A stretch of 64,000 bases of DNA from Physcia stellaris (taxonomy: Eukaryota; Ascomycota; Lecanoromycetes; Caliciales; Physciaceae). A program made the translations under genes and the position numbers. The stretch is from contig JABSSW010000077.1 in NCBI GenBank assembly GCA_018902385.1, forward strand, positions 1 through 64,000, read 5' to 3'. Every line of letters begins with the position of its first letter. Positions within the stretch are counted from its first letter, which is position 1. Positions 25,163-45,935 of the stretch are shown piece after piece. The notes under the pieces are model-generated. The model searched no databases. It was not told where the DNA came from and saw only the letters and a program-made list of their open reading frames with translations.

Positions 25163-25316
25163 TTTTAATCGTTGTCATATTTCAAAGTGATGTCATTCGT
25201 GTATATTTAACAAAACACAATTTTGTTGTTTCGTATACATCATGTCGAACTTTGATGATGATTTGTTTTTGAATTTGTCGAAAATGCTGATTTTTTTTTT
25301 TGATTGATTTATTACA

Positions 25317-25530
25317 TGTGAGATGCTATGCAGAGATATAGTACTACTACATAACTACACGAGAATATCGAAGTGAGAAACTAACTACTGAAATCTGACA
25401 GAACATATGTAGAAAATTTGATTATAGCGAAATCCGAGCCCGAATCTCGATGTGATAAAATAAAAATGTTAACTCTAGTGACTGATCAAATGTTGATCTC
25501 AAATGTTGAAATCGATGCACGCTCGTCACA
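25317..25530. repeat. LTR of element A (left copy)
   Basis: This 214-bp copy matches 31,783-31,996 along its whole length, with mainly C/T and G/A differences. On the coding (minus) strand it starts TGTGACGAGC, close to the TGTTACGAGC start of the element B LTR. Confidence 0.88.
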
Positions 25531-26395
25531 TTATTTTTCGTTTTTTTCAACTTCGTTTCGAAGCGATCAACTGACTTCTTTCTTTTCTGTCGATCGACAG
25601 AGCACGTGATCTCGATGACTTGTTCGTAAATGCATTGAGTTCATAGCGGACGCGACAATCGTAAAAACGTACAAAAATCTGAGATAAAAACGACGAAAAC
25701 GATTTCTGCAAATCATTTGATTTTGTATCTGCGAGAATCGTTGAATGTCAAAGATATCTGGCGTTTAGTATGATGAAAACGATCGTTTTCTCAGAGCATG
25801 AAGATCTCTCAGAAAATTTGCGTTTGAATTCAGATGTAAAGAATTATTAAGGCATGAAATATGCGAAAATATCGTCTCATGTCGTATGATGAAAAGACGT
25901 TTTTTTGACAGATTCTTGAGCATGCATGCGATGTTCATTAGTAGTTAATACACAGAAGAAAAGATGAAAACGTTCTCGAATCATCATTCGAAACGTGACA
26001 GCTAAGCGTGAGCTATGATATGATACTCGTGAGTAAATGATATAATAAATCATTTGAAAGTATCTGAAACTCGAAAACTTTGAAGCAGACTGATCGAGAC
26101 GAGAAAATTGATCAATGCTCGAAATCTCTGATCAGAATAGCGATTCGCTTCTATCAGACTTTCGATATGAATAGAAGTATCTGTATTCGATGCCGAATGC
26201 AAATCTATGCGAGATATCTGAAGTCGAAATCATTGCAACTGATAAAAGAATTGATTTGCAATCAACTCGCTGAGAATGCAAACGATGACGTAAATGATGA
26301 AATAAACAGACGATCGAAAGTTTGCTTCTTCAGAATCTAATACGTAGTTTAGAATGTAAAGAATCGAAAACTCGAGCTTTTGAATGTAATGAAGA

Positions 26396-26822: not shown

Positions 26823-27090
26823 TAGAAATAGCTTCGCCAATCATTAGTAAACAGTTGAGAATCTTGTTGTCAAACTTGTAGATGTTCGAGCTTTCTTTGA
26901 CAATCTGTTGTTTACTCATATCATTGCATGACATTTTACACTAGACGCGAAAAGTCTTCGCGAACATATGAGATTTCGAAAACTTCATTTTTGAAGAATC
27001 TAGAATCTGCAAACGCTTCTGAGTTGACGCAAAAAATGTCTGACAATTTGTATGATCAATAGATCGAGTTTTTGACATGACAAGACGAAT

Positions 27091-29737
27091 CTATTTCGCA
27101 GACGTAGATTGTTGAAAATTCTTCGAATTCGAGCTTTTCAAACTCTGACTAATCGATGTCTTTTGATTGATTGCAAACAGAAAATAGACGATGATGCGAG
27201 ACTGATATGTGACAGATGATCGAACGTCGATGCTTTGCGAAGAGAAACGACGCTTTTGATGCTGCGATAAATCAATTGATTTGAACTTTTCATGAAACAT
27301 GCGAATCAGATCATCGATTGTAAAATGAAATTTCTGATGTTTCGAAACAAATGTTCGAGAAGATGTAAACGAACAATTGAATGTTGCAATTTCGACGCGT
27401 TTTGATGTAAATTCTCGAGTCGTTAACATTGATGCAATTTCTGTTTGCTTTGATGTAATATTGAGTGTCGCAATAGAGAAATGCGAACACTTTGATGATA
27501 TCGATGCAAAATAGAATATCGACTTTGATGTTGCAAAAAAAAAAGAGTAGACGAAGCAGACGAGCAAACGACTGCTGATTTCTTCATGATTTTGTACGTG
27601 ATTTTGAGTGTACAATGTTGAAAACTCGAACTTTTGATGTTTCGTGACTGGATATTCGAGCAATTTATTCTTCGTTTTTTCTCAGTTTCGTCTCGAAGCG
27701 ACAAATTCATTATTCTTATCGAATGACACGATCAATGATCGAAACGACTTGTTCGTAAACGTTAATGCAGCTCGTTTTTGTAACTGAAATGATCGAAACG
27801 AATGTGAGAGCAAGAAGAAAAATCGAAAAAAGACGAAAAAATATAAAAATGAAAAAAAGAAGTCTCGTCGAAAACATCGAACATTTTGTATAATAATTTG
27901 ATCGATTTCTCAAACAAGTTTTCGCTGAAGACAGTGCGAATTGATTTCGCAAACATGTGTTGATTCAAACTTTTCGATTTTGAGCTTTTCGAGTTCTGAT
28001 CAATCGACGACTTCTGATTGACTGTGAGCTTGACATAGATCGTAGTTGACGATCGATCTGAGATCATTTGATTCTGAAATAAATCGATTTTTTTGATTTT
28101 CTCATCGAACATCTCGACCAGATTTTCGATAGTGAGATAAGACTTTTTCGAAGATGCGAAGCGATGTTGACGAACGTCGAAACTCTGCGAAAAAGAACGA
28201 CGATTGTGATGCTGTTGCAAATCAAATGATTTAGACTTTTCAGCAAACATGCGACTCAAATCATTCACAATCAAATAGAACTTCTGAACGTGAAATTCTT
28301 GATGTTTTGAAACTGAGCCAAACGATAAAGTAGATGAAAAAATGAGCGAGCAAATGACAACTGCGCTCTTCATCGATTTTGAGCTAATTTTGTATGTCGC
28401 AATCGAGAGATTCGAGCATTTCGATGATAAAAATTGCGAAACTATTTTCGTCGAAGATATTTGACTTCGTGATGTTGCAAAAAAAGTAAACGAGCATTCA
28501 ATTGTTGATTTCTTCTTGATTTTACATGTAGATTCTTGTGTAAAAATTCGAAAATCAAAGTTTTCGATCGATTTTCGAGCATGATGTTGACGTATATGCT
28601 CGTGAAATTTGTTATTGAAGTTGAAATTCTGTTTGCAACGTTTGCAAATTCGAACGCAAACGATCTGTTGAATCAGAGATCTTTTCATCGATTTTGATGC
28701 AAATTCGAGTGCTGATAATTGGAAAATTGCTCGTTCAATTTCTAATCTTACGCGAATGCAAAGCAACTTGAGTTCGAAATGTTGTGAATCATTCTGCGAT
28801 AGACTTCGCATCTTTTGCGAGTAAAGCAATTGCTGATTTCTTTGCGACTTCGCACGTTGAATTGACTGTATTATTCAAAAGAGATGAACAAATGTCTGAA
28901 AACTTTTGAAGAGAAATTTTTGAAATTTTGACTCGAACGTTCGAGATGATGACTTCGACGAAATAAAAAGAACATTGAGTTGACTTATTCTTCTTCGACT
29001 TTGATACAGATTCTGATGTATGAACTGAAAGATGCGTACTTTTTAATGTTGATTCAAAAATCTGCTTTGATGTTGCAATAGAGATATCAAATTCTTGCGA
29101 TGCAAACGCAAAAAGCGAATCATTGACTGTTGATTTTTTCATTTTTGCACGTCGACTTGACTGCATCGATCAAAAGAATTGAATTGACAATTGAATGCTT
29201 TCGAACATTCATATACTGATGTTTCTGAGCAGAAATCTGTGACACAAATGAAAAAAATGAAGCGATCAAACACTGCATCGATGTGTTCTCTATCGATTTC
29301 GATACAGACTCGAATGTAAATGATGAAAAAATCGAACGTTTCAATAGAGTGACTGATCTGAATGCTGTTGCAAACTCGAATATCGAGTTCTGAAATTTCG
29401 CAGATGAAACAGATGATACGTGCGTGACGAATGACTTCTTCTCGATATCGCATACTAAATTGACTGCATTGATCGAAAGATGAAAATCTTTGACGAGTTT
29501 CAGAGCTTCATGATTGCGAATATGCTCGTATAACTTTTTATTGAAATTGAAGCTCTGCTTGCAAAGCTTGCAAATCACTAAAACAGATGTGAATTCAAAA
29601 TCTGATGAGTTCTCGATCGATTCTGATATAACATCGAGTGCATCTAGCTGAAAATGCGAACTTCTCGATAGAGCACGTCGCGAGAAAATTTCTGCAAAAG
29701 AAAATGTTTTCGTAAAAATCTTATCGAAGCGTTTCAA
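27091..29737 (-). pseudogene. Decayed multi-module C2H2 / LTIEDL-motif coding region of element A
   Basis: Several overlapping minus-strand frames (27,091-27,663; 27,762-28,829; 28,789-29,166; 29,120-29,737) make up this block. Visible parts are two C2H2 finger signatures, three LTIxDLxxMFxEK motifs, and one QxxIxxYF stretch near 27.2 kb that keeps the PCNA-box pattern seen in element C. The modules recur more often than in element C, so A either carries an expanded gene or several tandem gene copies. Function is unknown. Treated as a fossil. Confidence 0.6.
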
Positions 29738-31782
29738 AAAAATGAATTCTGACTGAGTTTTGAATCAATCAGATGCAAAATCACATAGACAATTCGACAA
29801 TAAATTCAGCAAATTTGACTTGCGATATTGATATCGACATTGCTGAAAATGTTGCAGAAAATTCGCGACTTCACTGTACAGTCCGAATTCTGACTCATTA
29901 CATGTTGTTGAGTCGAAGATATCGATATTCTGAAACGTTGATGTTGACTTAACAGTCTGTTCTGCTTTCGAAATCTTTTTGAATTTCGAAACTTCAGATT
30001 TAATTTTCAACTTCTGTTGTTTCTGATTTGCGAAATAGACGATTCTGATGAAACGAGAATTGATTGTATCGTTGCAGACTCGCTAAAAGAAAATGTTTTC
30101 GTCAAAGCGATATCGAAATCGTGTAATGAGATGAATTTGAATTGCTCGTCGAATCATGCACTGACAGAATCAATAAAAGCGATTATCAATAGATCGAGCA
30201 ATTCTGACTCGCGATAAAAATGTAAACATTGCTGAAAATGTTGAAAAAGTCTGCGATGTGATTGAACAGTCCATTTTCAAATCAATTGTAAAAAAATGTC
30301 GAGTTGAAAATTCCAAATTCATCGAGTATTGAATTCATCGCAAAAGCGAAAAATATGAATTCACTTTATCAATGAAACGAATGCAAATTCGAACTAGTTT
30401 TCAGACACAATGAATGAATTCAATGTCGAATGTTGATGTAGAGTTTCGCTAGAAGATTCTTGTCGTTATTGATAGAACGATATTGAATTCAACGTCGAGA
30501 CGAGAAAAACAAGATCTTTTGCTAGTGATACAAATATGATCTCGCAATGATCTCGAAGAAGACGAATAATTTCAGTATTGATTTCTTATCGAAGTATTGA
30601 ACGAAAATATGAGAAATCTGAAGAACTGATTCGAAATCTGAATTTCAAAATGTAACAACTTCATCATCGATGCGAAAGAAATCAGACTGATTTGCTAAAC
30701 AGACAGATGTAATTCTTAAAGACTCTCAAGAATCAAAAATGACTCATGTACTGATATGAGATTGTCAATACTGAAAATTCTGTCGAAAAATTGACGAGTT
30801 TTCGATTATTGAGACTATTCTTGTAGTAAAAAAGAAATGCCGATTTGTTATGATCAATAGATATGCTCTATGATCGACTCTCAAGTAAAAAAAATGACTT
30901 CAATGTTGATTGTTTGAAGAAGTATCGTGAAAAAATTTGAAAATTTCTAGACGAGATATTGAATTGATCGAATGAATAGAAAAAAACGATCAATTCGCTA
31001 AAAATTTGATAAAAATTCTGAAAAATTCTCGAAACAAATAAATAATTCGAATTCGATCGAGAAAATGAAAATCGATCGAGAATTTCGATCTTCGATATGA
31101 GATTTCGAAAAATTGATATTGAATTCACCGCAAAGATTGAAGAGAGAAATCGTTTTATTAAAATCAACAAACACAAATTCGAACTGCTTCTCGAACAAAA
31201 GAAATGATTACACTATCAGATGCTGAATGATCTTCAAATGAAATATTGAACGATTTTCTGGCCCGATACTGAGACTATCGAGTTAAAACGAGAGAACGAT
31301 CGCTTTGTTAAGAAAGTAGATAGAATTTCGAAACGTTCTCGAAGAAAAGAGATGATTTCAGTTCGTTCGAGAGAGTGAAAGTTCGATCGAAGATTTCTGA
31401 TCGAATAACGAAGTTTCTGGTTCGACCTTTGCTCGAATTTCTTGTATGATGTTTTTCTGATGATCTAAATCTGATTTGATGATTTTCTGAATTTCAAGCA
31501 CGAATGCTTCGTCAAAAATGATAAAGATTGTTGTTGTTTGTGAATCGAGACTATCGCGTAGATTCGTCTGTTCTGAACGCTCTTTAAGACAAAGCAAACG
31601 AGTTTATTATGTTTCGTTTCTTTCAATTCACAACGAGTCTATTATGCTTCGTTGTTTTCGTTGAATGATCAAGCGATACGAGTCTATTATGCTCCTCTAT
31701 CGTCATTGAATTTGACAGAAAGCTTTGTTTATTTGATGTTCGCGTATCTTAAACGAACATGACGTGAATGATTTCGATATAA

Positions 31783-31996
31783 TGTGAAATGTTATGCAAA
31801 AATATGAACTAACTACATAATTACACGAGAATATCGAAGTGAAAAACTAACTACTGAAATCTGACAAAACATATGTAGAAAATTTGATTATAGCGAAATT
31901 CGAGCTCGAATCTCGATGTGATAAGATAAGAATGTTAATTTTAGTGATTGATCAAATGTTGATTTCAGATGTTGAAATCGATGCACGTTCGTCACA
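31783..31996. repeat. LTR of element A (right copy)
   Basis: Partner of the left copy and followed directly by the target duplication TTACA. Confidence 0.88.
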
Positions 31997-32082
31997 TTAC
32001 AAACAACAAATCGAAAAAAAAATCACAAAAAAATCAAATTCAAAATTCGAATTGTCGAGCGTTCGAAATTTGCAATCACTAT

Positions 32083-32260
32083 TGTAAGACGCATGCCTAG
32101 AAAACAGATAGCATAACGAGAATATTTGATTTAAAGAGCAAATATCTACATGAAGATCGAATGTCAAAAGTAGAAATGTGCGTCAAATCACACTAGTTCT
32201 CATATGAATTCTCGTTGATAAAATAAGTTCTCAATCGAGATTTCAAACATGCTCGTAACA
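32083..32260. repeat. LTR of element B (left copy)
   Basis: This 178-bp copy matches 33,937-34,109 apart from a short region of length difference in the middle. On the coding strand it starts TGTTACGAGCATG. Confidence 0.88.
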
Positions 32261-33285
32261 CTATTTTCTCGTTTTCTTCAAGTTTCGTCTCGAAGCGAAT
32301 AAATCACTTTTTCTATCGATCGGTATTGCGAAGAGATTCATTGACTGTGATTCAGATATCAATCTGATCATGACAGAAGCAGAAGAACTCAAGCAGATGT
32401 GATAGACGTGAAAAGATAAATGCGAAAGCAAAAGAAGAAGAACGAAAACAGAAAATATAAAATCACGAAAATGAGAATCTTGTTGAGAACTTTGATCTCG
32501 ATCGATGCGAGAGACATCTGCAGATTAATATGATGAAACGATCGATTTCTCGAGCAAAGTAGAAGCAGAAACAGCAAAGCAATATCGATTTCGCGAGCGT
32601 ATGTTGTTTCAAATTTCTCGAATTTGAGCTTTTCGAGTTTTTATTAATCGACGCGTCCTGATTGGCTGCAGAATCTGAAACAAAGTATTGACGCATTGAC
32701 GACGACAAAGACGAAAAAAGCGAGCTGATTTGATCGTGTAGCAGATCTATTGAATCGATGTTCTTCAACTCTTTTCTCTATGTCATTGTTCTCGTATCGC
32801 TTGTATGTAAAAGATTCATCTAAAATTGATGTTGATTGCGAAGATGTAAATAAAAATTGAACAAAAATGCGCTTTTGAGATCGTTGTAGCAAACTCATTG
32901 AGATCGATGCGAGCTCGTTCGTAAGACGAAACGAAATTGAAAAGAATCACTAGTCGTTGAAAGGAAAAACGAGTGTCATCGAAACGAGCAGATCGCTGAG
33001 ACAGAAGCGAAACGAAGCGAAATCCAAAATTTTTTTGTTTGATGTTTTGGATGTTGATTTGTTTGTTAGAGATAGATGATTTGATGTGTGTAAAACTTTT
33101 ATTTCTTTTTTATCAAGCGGTGTCTCAACGCTTCAAGAAAACGACTATTCAAAGAACTTGTTGGCGGATTTTTTCAACTCGAGAAATCATGAAAGTCGTC
33201 GATTGACGAGTTGATAGAGTTTTTTCTCATCACGATGAGTTGATTGTTTTTCAGAACAAAAAGATCAACGATTGATTGTCATTAT

Positions 33286-33650: not shown

Positions 33651-33936
33651 CACTTGTTTCGACAGAGCGTTTGATTTGAGTGTCACTTAGTCTCGCAGAA
33701 CTCAGAGCGAGAAATCGCTGTGTTGAAGACAATGAATCGTCACTGCTACGATTAATAAATAGATTTCGTGCTGAAGATGAAATCGTCACGAAATTGATCG
33801 AAAGATTCGTGCTGAAAATTGCGATCGTCACGAAATTGACAACGATCTTGTTTCTTTCTACTATTTTGATCGAATTTCACGATAACGATCATATTTCAAA
33901 ATTTACATCGTTCGTCACGATGAAAATCAAATATAA

Positions 33937-34109
33937 TGTAAGACGCATGTCTAGAAAACAAATAGCATAACGAGAATATTTGATCTAAAGAGCAAATATC
34001 TACATGAAAATCGAATGTCAAAAGTAGAATTTATTCAAATCAACAGTTCTCAATGAACTTTCGCTGATAAGATAAGTTCTCAATCGAGATCTCAAACATG
34101 CTCGTAACA
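33937..34109. repeat. LTR of element B (right copy)
   Basis: Partner of the left copy and followed directly by the target duplication ACTAT. Confidence 0.88.
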
Positions 34110-37100
34110 ACTATTTCATTTGTTTTTATTTCATTTATTTTTGTTTTTGATTTTGTTTGAAAATTTTTCGTCATGAAAATTATCGAAACGACATCGAATC
34201 AATATGAAAAAAAAAATTACAAAAAGTGAAAAAAATATTGCAAACAAATAAAAAATCAATTCACGCAAAACAACGTGAATTACAAAATTCAATTTTCGAA
34301 TTTAATCAAAATCGCATATGTTAATATTTATTTTAAATCAAATAACAATGCGAACAAGTTTTGAAACGCAAAAATCGATTTTCATTCAAACAAACAATAC
34401 ATTTGAATCGAATTCAAAAATTTTTGAAAAACGACATCGAACAAACAATCACGTTGCAACAAAATTTTTGAAAAATATCGCAAACACAAACAAAATCACG
34501 ATCAATCGATTAAAAATTACAATGTCGAACGAATAAATATGTTTGTTGAATTGAAATTCGAATTCAAATTCACGAAAACAATGAAATTCAACGATTTTCG
34601 TGACGAATTACGTCTGAAATTTCGTTGCATGCTTTTTAAAAAAAAAAAATTCACAAAAACGAAATTGTTTGAACGATTCAAACGTATGAAAAACGTTCAA
34701 ATTTTGAAAAAAATTCAAAAATTTCAAAAACGTAAAATTTCGATCGATATTGACAATTTTGAAAACGAAAACGAAAAATTCAAAATTGCGAAATTTAAAA
34801 ATAAAAAAATAAAAAATATTAACAAAGTCAATTCGAATTACGAATCAATCAAATCGAAAAATATTCGAATGTATCGTTGATTCGTTAGCGAATTAAAAAA
34901 ATTCAAAACAAAAATAATTGTATAAATTGTGACAAATCAAATCATCAAATCGAAATTTGCACAAACAAAAAAACAAAATCATTTTCGTTGATCAAATTTT
35001 TGAACAATCAAAAATTAATCGATTTGATGATTTTCGCTCAAATCGTTAAAAAAAAAGAAATTTTCGAATTTTGATTTCGATACGTCGTTTTTTTCAAACA
35101 TGAACAAAAATCATATTAACAAAAAAAAAAAACGACGCAAAAATTTAAAAAATTTGTGATTCGTAAATGCGTTAAAATCAAAATTAATATACAAAACAAA
35201 AATCAAATTTGAAACGAATCGAAAACAATATTCGATACAAAAACGAAAAATAATTTGATAAATCATGTTTATGCGAAAAAATTCGATTTTCGTCGTTTCG
35301 AAACTTTAAATTGTAATGCAATAACAATTGACAATTATCGTTTGAAAACATATGACGTTTATTTCGTACAATTCGAAATGTCAAACGTCAAAAAATCAAT
35401 CGTTTTTTCGAAAATCGTTTTTGATCGTGAATTTGAATTGAAATTTAACGTTAAACATGTTTTGAATACAATTTTCGAAAATCAAAAAAAAATTGAAACG
35501 ACGACAATATCAAAATTTAACGTTGCAAAAAAAAACATTTTATTTTCACGACGAATCGTATCGAAAACATCGAATCAAAACAATTGATTATAAACGTCAT
35601 CGATAACGAAATTGAAACGTATTTCATGTTCGTACGAATGTATATTGACAAGCAATTCGACATGCATGAAATACACGTTTTAAAACGAATTCAAATAAAA
35701 TTTGTTTTGATTGAAATGAAAAAAAATTCGATATCAAAATCACGTTTTTCGATATTTTGAAAACGTATGAAAAATTCGATAACGAAAATAAAATTTACGA
35801 ATTATCGAATCATGATTCAAACGATCATGTTATTGATTTAAAAAAAAACAAAAAATCGTCGCATGAATCAATTTATTTTTTATTTGAAAATGAATTTCGA
35901 ATATTACGTGTTTACATCGAAAAACATTTAATTAACGATTTCATTCGATTTTCATAATTTTTTGCAAAAACGTTCATTTTGTTCGTCAAAAAAAAACGAT
36001 AATTTACGTTTATGTGTGAATTACAAAAATTTTAATGTTTTCACGATAAAAAATAAATATTTTTTATCGTTAATCGATGAAAATTTAAATAAATTCAACA
36101 AAATCGTCAAATATATCAATATCGATTTGATTGTTGTTTATCATCGATTGCGTATCAAACATGAAAACGAATGAAAAACAATTTTTCGTATTCGATATGA
36201 TCATTTCGAATATAACGTATTTTTTTTCGATTTCATTAACGTTTCGACGACGTTTCAAAATTTTATCAATCGAATTTTGACGATTCGTTTCGATATTAAC
36301 GTCATAATATATTTGAACGATATAGTAATTTATTCGATGAACGTCGAAATTCATGTCGACGATATCAAATGAATTTTTGATCGTTTTAAAAAAAATAAAT
36401 TATATATTGTTTTTGAGAAATGCAAATGATTCGTTGACGAAATAAATTTTTTTGAATTCGTTGTTTCATTCAAAAAAATACGAATGCAAAACAAAAAAAT
36501 CGAAATTATTCAACAATGATTTGTATTTCGCAACGTTTTCGACATCATGCAATTTTTCGATATCGTTAATTTTTATCGACGATTCATTAAACATTTCAAT
36601 AAAATTGTTGAATTTTTGATCGTTATGTTAAAAAAATCGCAAAAATTACGAAAAAATATTCGTAAACGCAAACGAAATCAAAATCGAAATCGCAACAAAT
36701 TTTCGAATATTCACATTTTTTTGATCAATGAAACGTTGAAAATTTTCAAACGATTTCGCAAAACATTTATCGAAACATCAATTTTACGTCATTTCGATTT
36801 CGAACGTGTTATTCGAATCGAAATCGACGTATTCGACAAAATCATCGAAATCATTTTATGTCAACAAAACGACGAAAATCATTGACATTTTGTTGCGTAT
36901 TTTTCACGCAAAATGATTTCGATCGAATGCAATTACGAAATTCATGACAAAAAATTGTTGATTATTGTGATTTCGTTCAAACAATGAAAACATTATTTCG
37001 AAAACGCAAAAAAACAAATTTTTGTTTTTATTGATTATCGCAATTTGAAACAATTTATGATCACAATTAAATTGTCGTCACGTCAAATTCGATGAATTCA

Positions 37101-43516: not shown

Positions 43517-43521
43517 GTATT

Positions 43522-43682
43522 TGTTACGGTAAACCTCCACATAGGGCTGGAGTCAGGATATCTTGACCAGAACGGACTAGCGCCTTGGCAGCCTGGCCCA
43601 TATCTCGCACTCTGCCTCCTAGATAGTAACAATTCAACTACATTATCCACCTTATTATTATCCAATACGTTTTTTCGTAACA
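43522..43682 (+). repeat. 5' LTR of element C
   Basis: 161 bp with TG..CA ends and directly preceded by the target duplication GTATT. Confidence 0.92.
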
Positions 43683-43762
43683 AATGGTAGCATCATCGAG
43701 TAACGATTGACAGCTTCTATCGCTGTCTTATTAGCATGAGCAGCATCCAACTGCAGTGCAGT

Positions 43763-43945
43763 ATCTAGCCCCCGTGGAGCATCTAGTCCGACAGACGATA
43801 ATTGTCACAACTCCCGTGGAGTATCCAGTCCAAGCAGACGATAAACGCATCTAGTCCGCAGACGATAATTGCACCAATTGCTCTGCAATATCCAGTCCTG
43901 CCTGACGATAACGGCCTCAGTTGCTCTGCAACAACCAGCATCTAT
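43763..43945 (+). repeat. Imperfect short tandem repeats in the element C leader
   Basis: About four to five imperfect units of 35-45 bp, built from GTGGAG(C/T)ATC(C/T)AGTCC followed by GCAGACGATAA, or CTCTGCAATATCCAGTCC followed by TGACGATAA. They lie between the primer-binding site and the first coding block, the position where LTR elements often carry packaging or translation signals. Confidence 0.75.
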
Positions 43946-44072
43946 TGCACCAGAAATCTAGCCATTCGGCGCCCAAACACCACGAGTCCTCCGCAGCCCA
44001 AATACACCAACATACCTATCCAACAACGAGTCCTAGCCACCGAGCACCCGAAACCAATCACCGCCTGACGAT

Positions 44073-44732
44073 ATGACATCCATCTTTCGCAATGAAACAC
44101 CCGACTGCCTAGCAACACCATTACCGAAACCGCCAACTATTCAAGCCCCCTCATCACTTCGCAAGTTCAAGAAAGTACCCATACCTCCTTTAATGCTTCA
44201 AACCTTCGACGAATGGTGGCAGGAAGAGCTAAAAGCCAAGCGACGAATTGCTCTCGAGACCAATACACCAGAATTGCGAGCGAAATCGTTTGAGACAAAT
44301 AAATGGCCGCTTCAATATCCTACGTCTCAACAACTCGTTGATGCAGGCTTCAAGTACACTCCCACCAAGAGCGTCAAGGATATAACACACTGCATTACCT
44401 GCAATCTGTACGCCGACGGCTGGGACAAGAGCGACGATCCATACGAGGTACATTTGCGATTGTCACCTGATTGCGAATGGTTGAAGAAACACCATGACGA
44501 GCTCATGGCCATGAGGAAGCACGCATGCAGGCGTTGCCCAGCGAAGTTTCCTAGCAATACGAAGCTCCACCAACATATCCAGGATCACCACCAGAAGAAG
44601 CCTACAAACGAGACCCCGAAACCAACACCCCCTCCACACCAGAAGCAGTGGCCGCAGAACGTATGTCCATTGCATCGACCGCAGAATCAACACCCACTGC
44701 AACACCTCCATCACCGAGTGAGCCAGCATTGA
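44073..44732 (+). CDS. Element C: BIR domain plus C2H2 zinc-finger ORF (219 aa)
   Basis: The 219-residue frame starts at an ATG. Residues about 85-140 form a baculovirus-IAP-repeat (BIR) zinc domain. AGFKYTPT precedes CITC, then GW, DDPYEVH and SPDC, with spacing C-x2-C-x16-H-x6-C, which is exactly the BIR pattern. Residues about 150-171 form a C2H2 finger (CRRC ... LHQHIQDHH). The N-terminal part (about residues 1-70) is Pro-rich and basic and not recognised. BIR domains bind peptides and occur in apoptosis inhibitors and in survivin-type chromosomal passenger proteins; in fungi they are best known from the survivin relative Bir1. I infer a captured host-type domain. Its role in the element is unknown, and the combination may be a nucleic-acid or chromatin-tethering module. 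Confidence 0.7.
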   Translation: MTSIFRNETPDCLATPLPKPPTIQAPSSLRKFKKVPIPPLMLQTFDEWWQEELKAKRRIALETNTPELRAKSFETNKWPLQYPTSQQLVDAGFKYTPTKSVKDITHCITCNLYADGWDKSDDPYEVHLRLSPDCEWLKKHHDELMAMRKHACRRCPAKFPSNTKLHQHIQDHHQKKPTNETPKPTPPPHQKQWPQNVCPLHRPQNQHPLQHLHHRVSQH

Positions 44733-45691
44733 TGCTCACATCACCTGTCAGCCACCCAGAACCGACCATCGATAACTCACTTCCAATAACTCCACCTGCA
44801 ACACCAACTGCCACACCAGAGCAGTCAACTCCAACAAGCCCCGCAACACCACGAAAGCAGATATCCTGGGCCGAAATAGTCTCACGATCAGTCGTTGCAC
44901 CAAAGCCTTCGCGTCTCCCAGTTCCTACACCAAAGATCGTACCAACATGCACGGAGACTGCACCAATTACCTGCCCGCCTACTCCGCCGCCTACCCCCCC
45001 TCAGAAACCAGTACCAAAACACCAACACCAAGAGCAGAAACCTTACCTTACTATCGAAGACCTGTTCGAGATGTTTGCTGAGAAGCGCACGAAATCAGGC
45101 CTATTACACACCAAGAAGAGCAAATCACCTCCGAAGCTCTCCAACCAGACCAAAATCACCGCCTACTTCAGGCCTGCAGCCAATCAGAGCAAGCCGATTA
45201 CTCAGGGCTCGAAAACGCCAAATCCGAGGAGTTTTCAACAGCATACGCCCGCGGAATCGAACCGCGCCAAATCCACCCCCAGCAAGTGGTCTGAGAAATC
45301 GGCCATTTTACCATACAAAACATCGACCTTCTCCCGCCTGCATACCTCTGAGATATCAAGCAATTCGCCATACAAAATGCCAGGTATCTCATGCCTTCAA
45401 CCAATGGCCGCACCTTGCAAATCGTCGGCCCACCTACCTGTTTCACCTACCATTCAATCCTCGTCCAAGCCTCCCTCAATATCTCGGGCTCCCGCGCCTG
45501 CCGCATATGCTATGGTACTTTCGGATCGAACAATGGCCTGCATCGGCACCTACGAGCAATCCATTTCCACCAAGCACCTCGCCATGGATCTGAGAAGCAT
45601 GCGCCCGGGCGCAATTTCATGGCTTGAGATCGTTGACCGCATAGCGGAGAAACAGGCCCTTTTCTTACTTCATACTGTGTATTACTATTAG
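44648..45691 (+). CDS. Element C: Pro/Thr-rich ORF with LTIEDLFEMFAEK and PCNA-box-like motif (347 aa)
   Basis: The 347-residue frame overlaps the end of the BIR/C2H2 frame in another phase. Its first 125 residues are Pro/Thr/Ser-rich and probably disordered, although KQISWAEIVSRS looks like a short linear motif. At about residues 137-150 is PYLTIEDLFEMFAEK, also present in decayed form three times in element A. Near residues 167-174 (45,146-45,169) is QTKITAYF, a textbook fit to the PCNA-interacting box Q-x-x-[ILM]-x-x-[FY]-[FY], followed by a conserved AANQ...SFQQHTPAES stretch. The remainder is basic and Pro-rich. A second C2H2 finger signature (CRICYGTF ... LHRHLRAIH) is readable in another frame near 45.5 kb. 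Function is unknown. Confidence 0.6.
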   Translation: MAAERMSIASTAESTPTATPPSPSEPALMLTSPVSHPEPTIDNSLPITPPATPTATPEQSTPTSPATPRKQISWAEIVSRSVVAPKPSRLPVPTPKIVPTCTETAPITCPPTPPPTPPQKPVPKHQHQEQKPYLTIEDLFEMFAEKRTKSGLLHTKKSKSPPKLSNQTKITAYFRPAANQSKPITQGSKTPNPRSFQQHTPAESNRAKSTPSKWSEKSAILPYKTSTFSRLHTSEISSNSPYKMPGISCLQPMAAPCKSSAHLPVSPTIQSSSKPPSISRAPAPAAYAMVLSDRTMACIGTYEQSISTKHLAMDLRSMRPGAISWLEIVDRIAEKQALFLLHTVYYY

Positions 45692-45769
45692 ATTTCTCGA
45701 AGGATGGATCGCATGTCCCCGCCACACGGCACAACGAGGGCGTTGTGGTCTTCTTTCGTTGGTGGCATC

Positions 45770-45930
45770 TGTTACGGTAAACCTCCACATAGGGCTGGAG
45801 TCAGGATATCTTGACAAGAACGGACTAGCGCCTTGGCAGCCTGGCCCATATCTCGCACTCTGCCTTCTAGATAGTAACAATTCAACCACTTTATCCACCA
45901 CATTATTATCCAATACGTTTTATCGTAACA
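45770..45930 (+). repeat. 3' LTR of element C
   Basis: 161 bp, about 7 differences from the 5' copy, and directly followed by GTATT. Confidence 0.92.
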
Positions 45931-45935
45931 GTATT

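Follow-up and report, generated by a model that had tools for sequence, protein, structure and literature searches.

A stretch of 64,000 nt of Physcia stellaris DNA, here called the window, carries at positions 43522-45930 an LTR insertion with a total length of 2.4 kb. Its identity as a non-autonomous LTR element is well supported, with a probable derivation from a gypsy retrotransposon, and its Gag-like protein belongs to a family in which a BIR domain or a capsid-like domain precedes a common tail. The strongest constant of the family is a PIP box in this tail, which the initial annotation did not name. We propose, with a probability of about 0.6, that the Gag-like protein tethers the nucleic acid of the element to host replication or chromatin proteins, and that a partner element supplies reverse transcriptase and integrase.

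Anatomy of the insertion

The features of the window copy are as follows (all on the + strand except the duplications, to which no strand is assigned).

43517..43521, target-site duplication (TSD) GTATT, 5′ side (sequence flanking the LTR)
43522..43682, +, 5′ LTR, 161 bp, TGTTACGG...CGTAACA (repeat comparison)
43685..43697, +, primer binding site, 13-nt perfect run (16/18) complementary to a tRNA 3′ end
44037..44732, +, frame 1, 231 aa stop to stop, BIR and first C2H2 finger (ORF translation, Pfam)
44277..44486, +, BIR domain (Pfam, phmmer, dN/dS)
44526..44591, +, first C2H2 finger CRRCPAKFPSNTKLHQHIQDHH (Pfam scan, family recurrence)
44555..45691, +, frame 2, 378 aa, proline-rich tail with SWAEI, YLTIEDL and the PIP box (ORF translation)
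45044..45064, +, YLTIEDL, conserved short motif, helix in the P0006 model (family comparison, model)
45146..45169, +, PIP-box-like motif QTKITAYF (motif search, family comparison)
45499..45564, +, C-terminal C2H2 finger CRICYGTFGSNNGLHRHLRAIH, in frame 3 (45352-45627) (Pfam scan, family recurrence)
45745..45769, +, conserved 25-nt tract adjoining the 3′ LTR, at the usual position of a polypurine tract, though not rich in purines
45770..45930, +, 3′ LTR, 161 bp (repeat comparison)
45931..45935, target-site duplication GTATT, 3′ side (sequence flanking the LTR)

The LTRs are direct repeats with TG...CA ends. They had been described as perfect, which is not so, since 154 of 161 positions are identical; the 5-bp duplication described with them, GTATT, is present on both sides. 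The primer binding site begins two bases past the 5′ LTR and is complementary to the product of a tRNA gene at C32:406058-406128, with the tRNA CCA and the discriminator A assumed in this match. By our reading of its sequence this tRNA would be of the initiator type, with CAT in the anticodon loop and A1-T72. A purine-rich tract before the 3′ LTR is present in a second type of element (type B, L069), in L072 and in C12; the type of the window copy (type A) is without one.

The BIR domain and both C2H2 fingers had been assigned to one frame. The BIR domain and the first finger do lie together in frame 1, in which the first ATG at 44073 gives a protein of 219 aa, but the family tail in frame 2 is out of frame with the BIR domain, and the last finger is in frame 3. 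The window copy is therefore broken. Intact ORFs with both fingers are found in relatives, for example C56 (535 aa) and C3 (527 aa). The two C2H2 signatures score 16.1 and 20.3 bits, under the Pfam cut-off of 27 bits, and both recur across the element family. The first finger agrees at 13 of 22 residues with the one in the Gag of L076, which is a gypsy element from this genome, and hence need not have arrived with the BIR domain. The proposal that a non-autonomous element had captured or evolved a BIR/zinc-finger gene is upheld for the non-autonomous LTR element, the genuine BIR domain and the C2H2 fingers, while the first finger may be that of a gypsy Gag.

As the initial annotation stated, protease, polymerase and integrase are absent from the three frames of the window copy in a Pfam scan. 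No reverse transcriptase match falls inside the element among the best 150 of 527 RVT_1 and the best 150 of 165 RVT_2 matches in the genome. An autonomous LTR retrotransposon was rejected, as none of protease, reverse transcriptase, RNase H and integrase was detected in the three frames.

A multicopy family with separate insertions

Both the LTR and the internal part served as queries against the genome, the best 40 candidates of each search being taken. At least 24 loci have two LTR matches and at least four have one (C15, C21, C30 and C59); the latter were omitted from the copy counts. In 23 of the 24 two-LTR copies an exact TSD of 5 bp follows an LTR that ends in AACA; C19 has none. Three pairs (C71/C102, C109/C46 and C95/C60) have a common TSD and common flank ends and are probably duplicated segments or redundant contigs, which leaves about 20 separate insertion sites. 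Identity within LTR pairs ranges from 151/151 (C23) and 161/162 (C31, C3b) down to 143/160 aligned positions (C29b). The primer site has a perfect run of 13-16 nt in 15 of 23 copies and of 12 nt in four, and is broken in four.

These copies answer the question, raised with the first description, whether further LTR-flanked relatives exist, and they bear on the explanation that a host BIR/zinc-finger gene family lies by chance between solo LTRs. There is indeed a conserved BIR-BIR-C2H2 gene of the host (C2:1420246-1420686; 16 homologues), but the LTR-flanked copies have their own TSDs and share a tail with a PIP box that occurs in 0/16 proteins of the host group. A multicopy family with exact TSDs in 23/24 copies refutes this explanation, to which we give practically no credence.

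The BIR domain

BIR domains occur in proteins of cell death and of cell division. The domain had been called a canonical BIR, and the Pfam profile search proposed as a check bears this out (E 3.1e-17; 63.3 bits, the cut-off being 22.9), with the spacing CX2C-X16-H-X6-C. In a genome-wide profile search the same domain scored E 1.1e-16, and against solved structures phmmer matched it to NAIP (4e-22) and survivin (6e-9). Pfam BIR gave 20 matches across the genome in 15 loci, namely 10 element-related loci (C21, without an established LTR pair, among them), three of the second type and two host genes. Of the host genes, one, on C23, is Bir1-like, and the other is the BIR-BIR-C2H2 gene on C2 (L004 874-1776, − strand), whose homologues include proteins of Heterodermia, Caloplaca and Squamulea. 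The latter gene is a possible donor of the type-B BIRs.

Ten BIR sequences gave 45 pairs, the codons of two stops in C46 being skipped. In the 21 measurable pairs (dS < 2.5) dN/dS was 0.03-0.48, with 17 of the 21 at 0.1-0.3. The BIR codons are under purifying selection, and the low ratio indicates that the BIR domain is kept as a protein inside the mobile element. Both the tryptophan and the acidic residue at what we take to be the pocket positions of the N-terminal-alanine (IBM or H3 tail) site are kept in the window copy. By a fixed-spacing pattern, however, no more than 11 of the 51 BIR domains of elements keep both, and a ligand shared among these domains is accordingly not indicated. A loose pattern of the zinc ligands is found in 41 of the 51. 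In the host BIR-BIR-C2H2 group the pocket pattern occurs in 3/32 domains and the zinc pattern in 31/32.

The preservation of zinc ligands (41/51) over pocket residues (11/51) would suit an N-terminal module without a conserved partner, a zinc-stabilised spacer or oligomerisation unit exchangeable with a capsid N-lobe without consequence, in which selection acts on the fold only; C71 and C102, which have neither module, would suit it as well. We regard this as unlikely, because a dN/dS of 0.1-0.3, as seen in 17 of the 21 measurable pairs, speaks of stronger constraint than a spacer calls for, and because type-B proteins combine two BIRs with a capsid-like domain.

The N-terminal module is BIR or capsid-like

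The initial annotation treated the BIR domain as the module of the element. This was incomplete, since BIR is one of two alternatives and the other is capsid-like. HMM searches of 23 copies found BIR in 14, a capsid-like domain in seven, neither in two (C71, C102) and both in none; the window copy is without a Gag capsid domain. Calls were made at E 0.01, those for C29b (BIR) and for C5a and C28 (capsid) being weak and that for C2 (BIR) partial; C60 contributed to the capsid HMM, and the seeds of the BIR HMM comprised BIRs of the host, of type B and of C77, C56 and C3b. Neither HMM matched the reverse strands of the 23 copies.

Aligned by hhalign to the Gag of an element with reverse transcriptase, RNase H, an integrase zinc-binding domain and a chromodomain, the capsid-like domain gave a probability of 87 (E 4.4e-6). 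In Foldseek, 21 of the 22 rows for its low-confidence model were capsids of Arc, dArc, PNMA2, PEG10 or Ty1, none of them under E 0.001.

Type-B elements (C48, C36 and C26) have the order BIR-BIR-capsid-finger and different LTRs. C36 has both LTRs and, by our reading, the TSD TTTGT; in C48 and C26 one LTR is whole or cut, and C26 is split over two frames. Among 148 homologues the BIR HMM matched 47, the capsid HMM 31, and both together nine, so that BIR and capsid are alternatives only within the element type of the window copy. The combination of BIR and capsid may be the older arrangement, and single-module copies may be losses of one or the other.

The tail and its PIP box

A motif of the form Qxx[ILM]xx[FY][FY] (QxxITxYF type) is present in 131 of the 148 homologues, against 2.6 expected by shuffling; the homologues are related to one another and come, with the host group excluded, from two protein searches (each the best ~7990 candidates sharing most words) whose queries include the tail, which favours PIP-bearing matches. 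Named sources are Physcia stellaris and Heterodermia speciosa, plus the Bir1-like P0161. Within the genome, 21 of 23 copies have the motif. In a 34-codon piece around it, picked by motif from 20 of 23 copies, the median dN/dS was 0.60 (167 pairs), which is only moderately low. The PIP stretch is disordered in the P0006 model. PIP boxes bind PCNA, and the motif suggests that the element protein would do so as well.

The BIR domain and PIP box might instead serve as counter-defence, against RIP, PCNA-recruited DNA methylation and heterochromatin, or cell death, in the same element. RIP-like damage is present in the genome, with TGA stops in most of the best 150 of 527 RVT_1 matches, and 22 of 23 type-A copies nonetheless hold a GC of 0.49-0.53; the QxxITSxF form of the element presumably resembles the PIP box of DNMT1. 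However, copies with the capsid-like module and no BIR hold equal GC, C29b is AT-shifted to 0.31, and identity to the window copy is 69-83% in the longer matches, so that many copies may be below what we take to be the identity threshold of RIP. Counter-defence seems to us improbable.

A proposed tethering model

The analysis demonstrates the anatomy of the element, its insertion, the variable N-terminal module, selection on the BIR domain and conservation of the PIP box; mobilisation in trans, PCNA binding, a BIR ligand and tethering, which the initial annotation had also suggested, are hypotheses built on these. Elements without pol depend on the enzymes of a partner, and BIR domains bind peptides. 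In the tethering model, an autonomous Ty3/gypsy partner would provide reverse transcriptase and integrase and, for capsid-less copies, also the particle. The fingers of the element protein would bind the element nucleic acid, the PIP box would contact PCNA and the BIR domain a host protein. The element could then be held at replicating or AT-rich chromatin, as the insertion site or the place of integration-gap repair. Both flanks are below 35% GC in 22 of 23 copies (500-bp flanks, one side shorter in five copies), a figure that stands without a genome-wide background and beside a window in which 64% of 500-bp blocks are below 35%. L076 is a candidate partner copy, with pol over several frames, a chromodomain, and a C2H2-type Gag finger and primer site in common with the window element; the body of its LTR is unlike that of the window element. 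A more specific version, which we offer only tentatively, is that the capsid was traded for a BIR reader of host origin together with a PCNA motif, and that Gag is now an adaptor docking partner-made cDNA to replicating heterochromatin, the BIR surface diversifying while the PCNA motif is fixed.

Comparison with known systems

TRIM, LARD and Gag-only elements share with the window element the LTRs, TSD, tRNA primer site, absence of pol and expected dependence on a partner. TRIMs are short, and LARDs are long and non-coding, whereas here selection acts on a chimeric protein that combines BIR, fingers and a PIP box. A TRIM, with its very short non-coding internal region, is ruled out by internal regions of 1.65-2.2 kb and ORFs of up to 616 aa in the family.

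With fungal Ty3/gypsy chromoviruses the element has in common a capsid N-lobe-like domain (in related copies) and the C2H2-type Gag finger and primer site seen in L076, but it lacks polymerase, integrase and chromodomain, and BIR replaces the capsid in 14 of 23 copies. The available part of an account of fungal chromoviruses (PMC3248453) mentions no zinc finger, C2H2 or BIR domain.

Survivin/Bir1 and the IAPs, among which NAIP and survivin give the best matches to solved structures, share the BIR fold and zinc ligands, but the element BIR is mobile and has a Gag-like tail. Pfam scans of the window frames and type-B proteins showed neither RING nor any other domain that partners BIR in IAPs.

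PIP-box-type motifs occur in other mobile-element proteins, the pogo transposase and LINE-1 ORF2p. The former is a DNA transposase and the latter a non-LTR reverse transcriptase, in contrast to a Gag-like protein without catalytic domains. An account of links between transposons and the replication fork describes PIP boxes for pogo and LINE-1 and, for LTR elements of fungi, sites of fork arrest, and its available part names a PCNA-binding motif for no LTR element (PMC5371812); a non-canonical PCNA site has been proposed in LINE-1 ORF2p (PMC7617806, from the part available). The statement that no described LTR family was known to carry a BIR domain agrees with our search, in which neither a BIR domain nor a PIP box was attributed to an LTR element among the matches listed in the open-licence literature, subscription papers and preprints lying outside it. 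Clamp binding, covered for DNA transposons and LINE-1 by the available part of PMC5371812, would reach LTR elements too through a PIP box that is constant in so large a family of their Gag-like proteins. Replacement of a capsid lobe by BIR suggests that modules for host interaction can become the core of a rebuilt Gag, and the variants occurring in nature, with BIR, capsid, both or neither on one common tail, offer a way to test the contribution of each part.

Neighbouring and related elements

AT-rich relatives of the element protein family, up to 47% identical to P0079 and apparently RIP-degraded, lie in the window at 27049-30076 (− strand), between LTR-like direct repeats at 25301-25533 and 31765-31999 that are 89% identical. 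Direct repeats of ~188 nt at 32080-32266 and 33934-34116, 89% identical and 1.85 kb apart, are possibly another small LTR element. Elsewhere in the genome, L075 (C12:57000-64500) is a gypsy-like element with open frames of 519 and 1151 aa and 224-nt repeats that are 100% identical, and its LTR start and polypurine tract are similar to those of the BIR-BIR-capsid elements.
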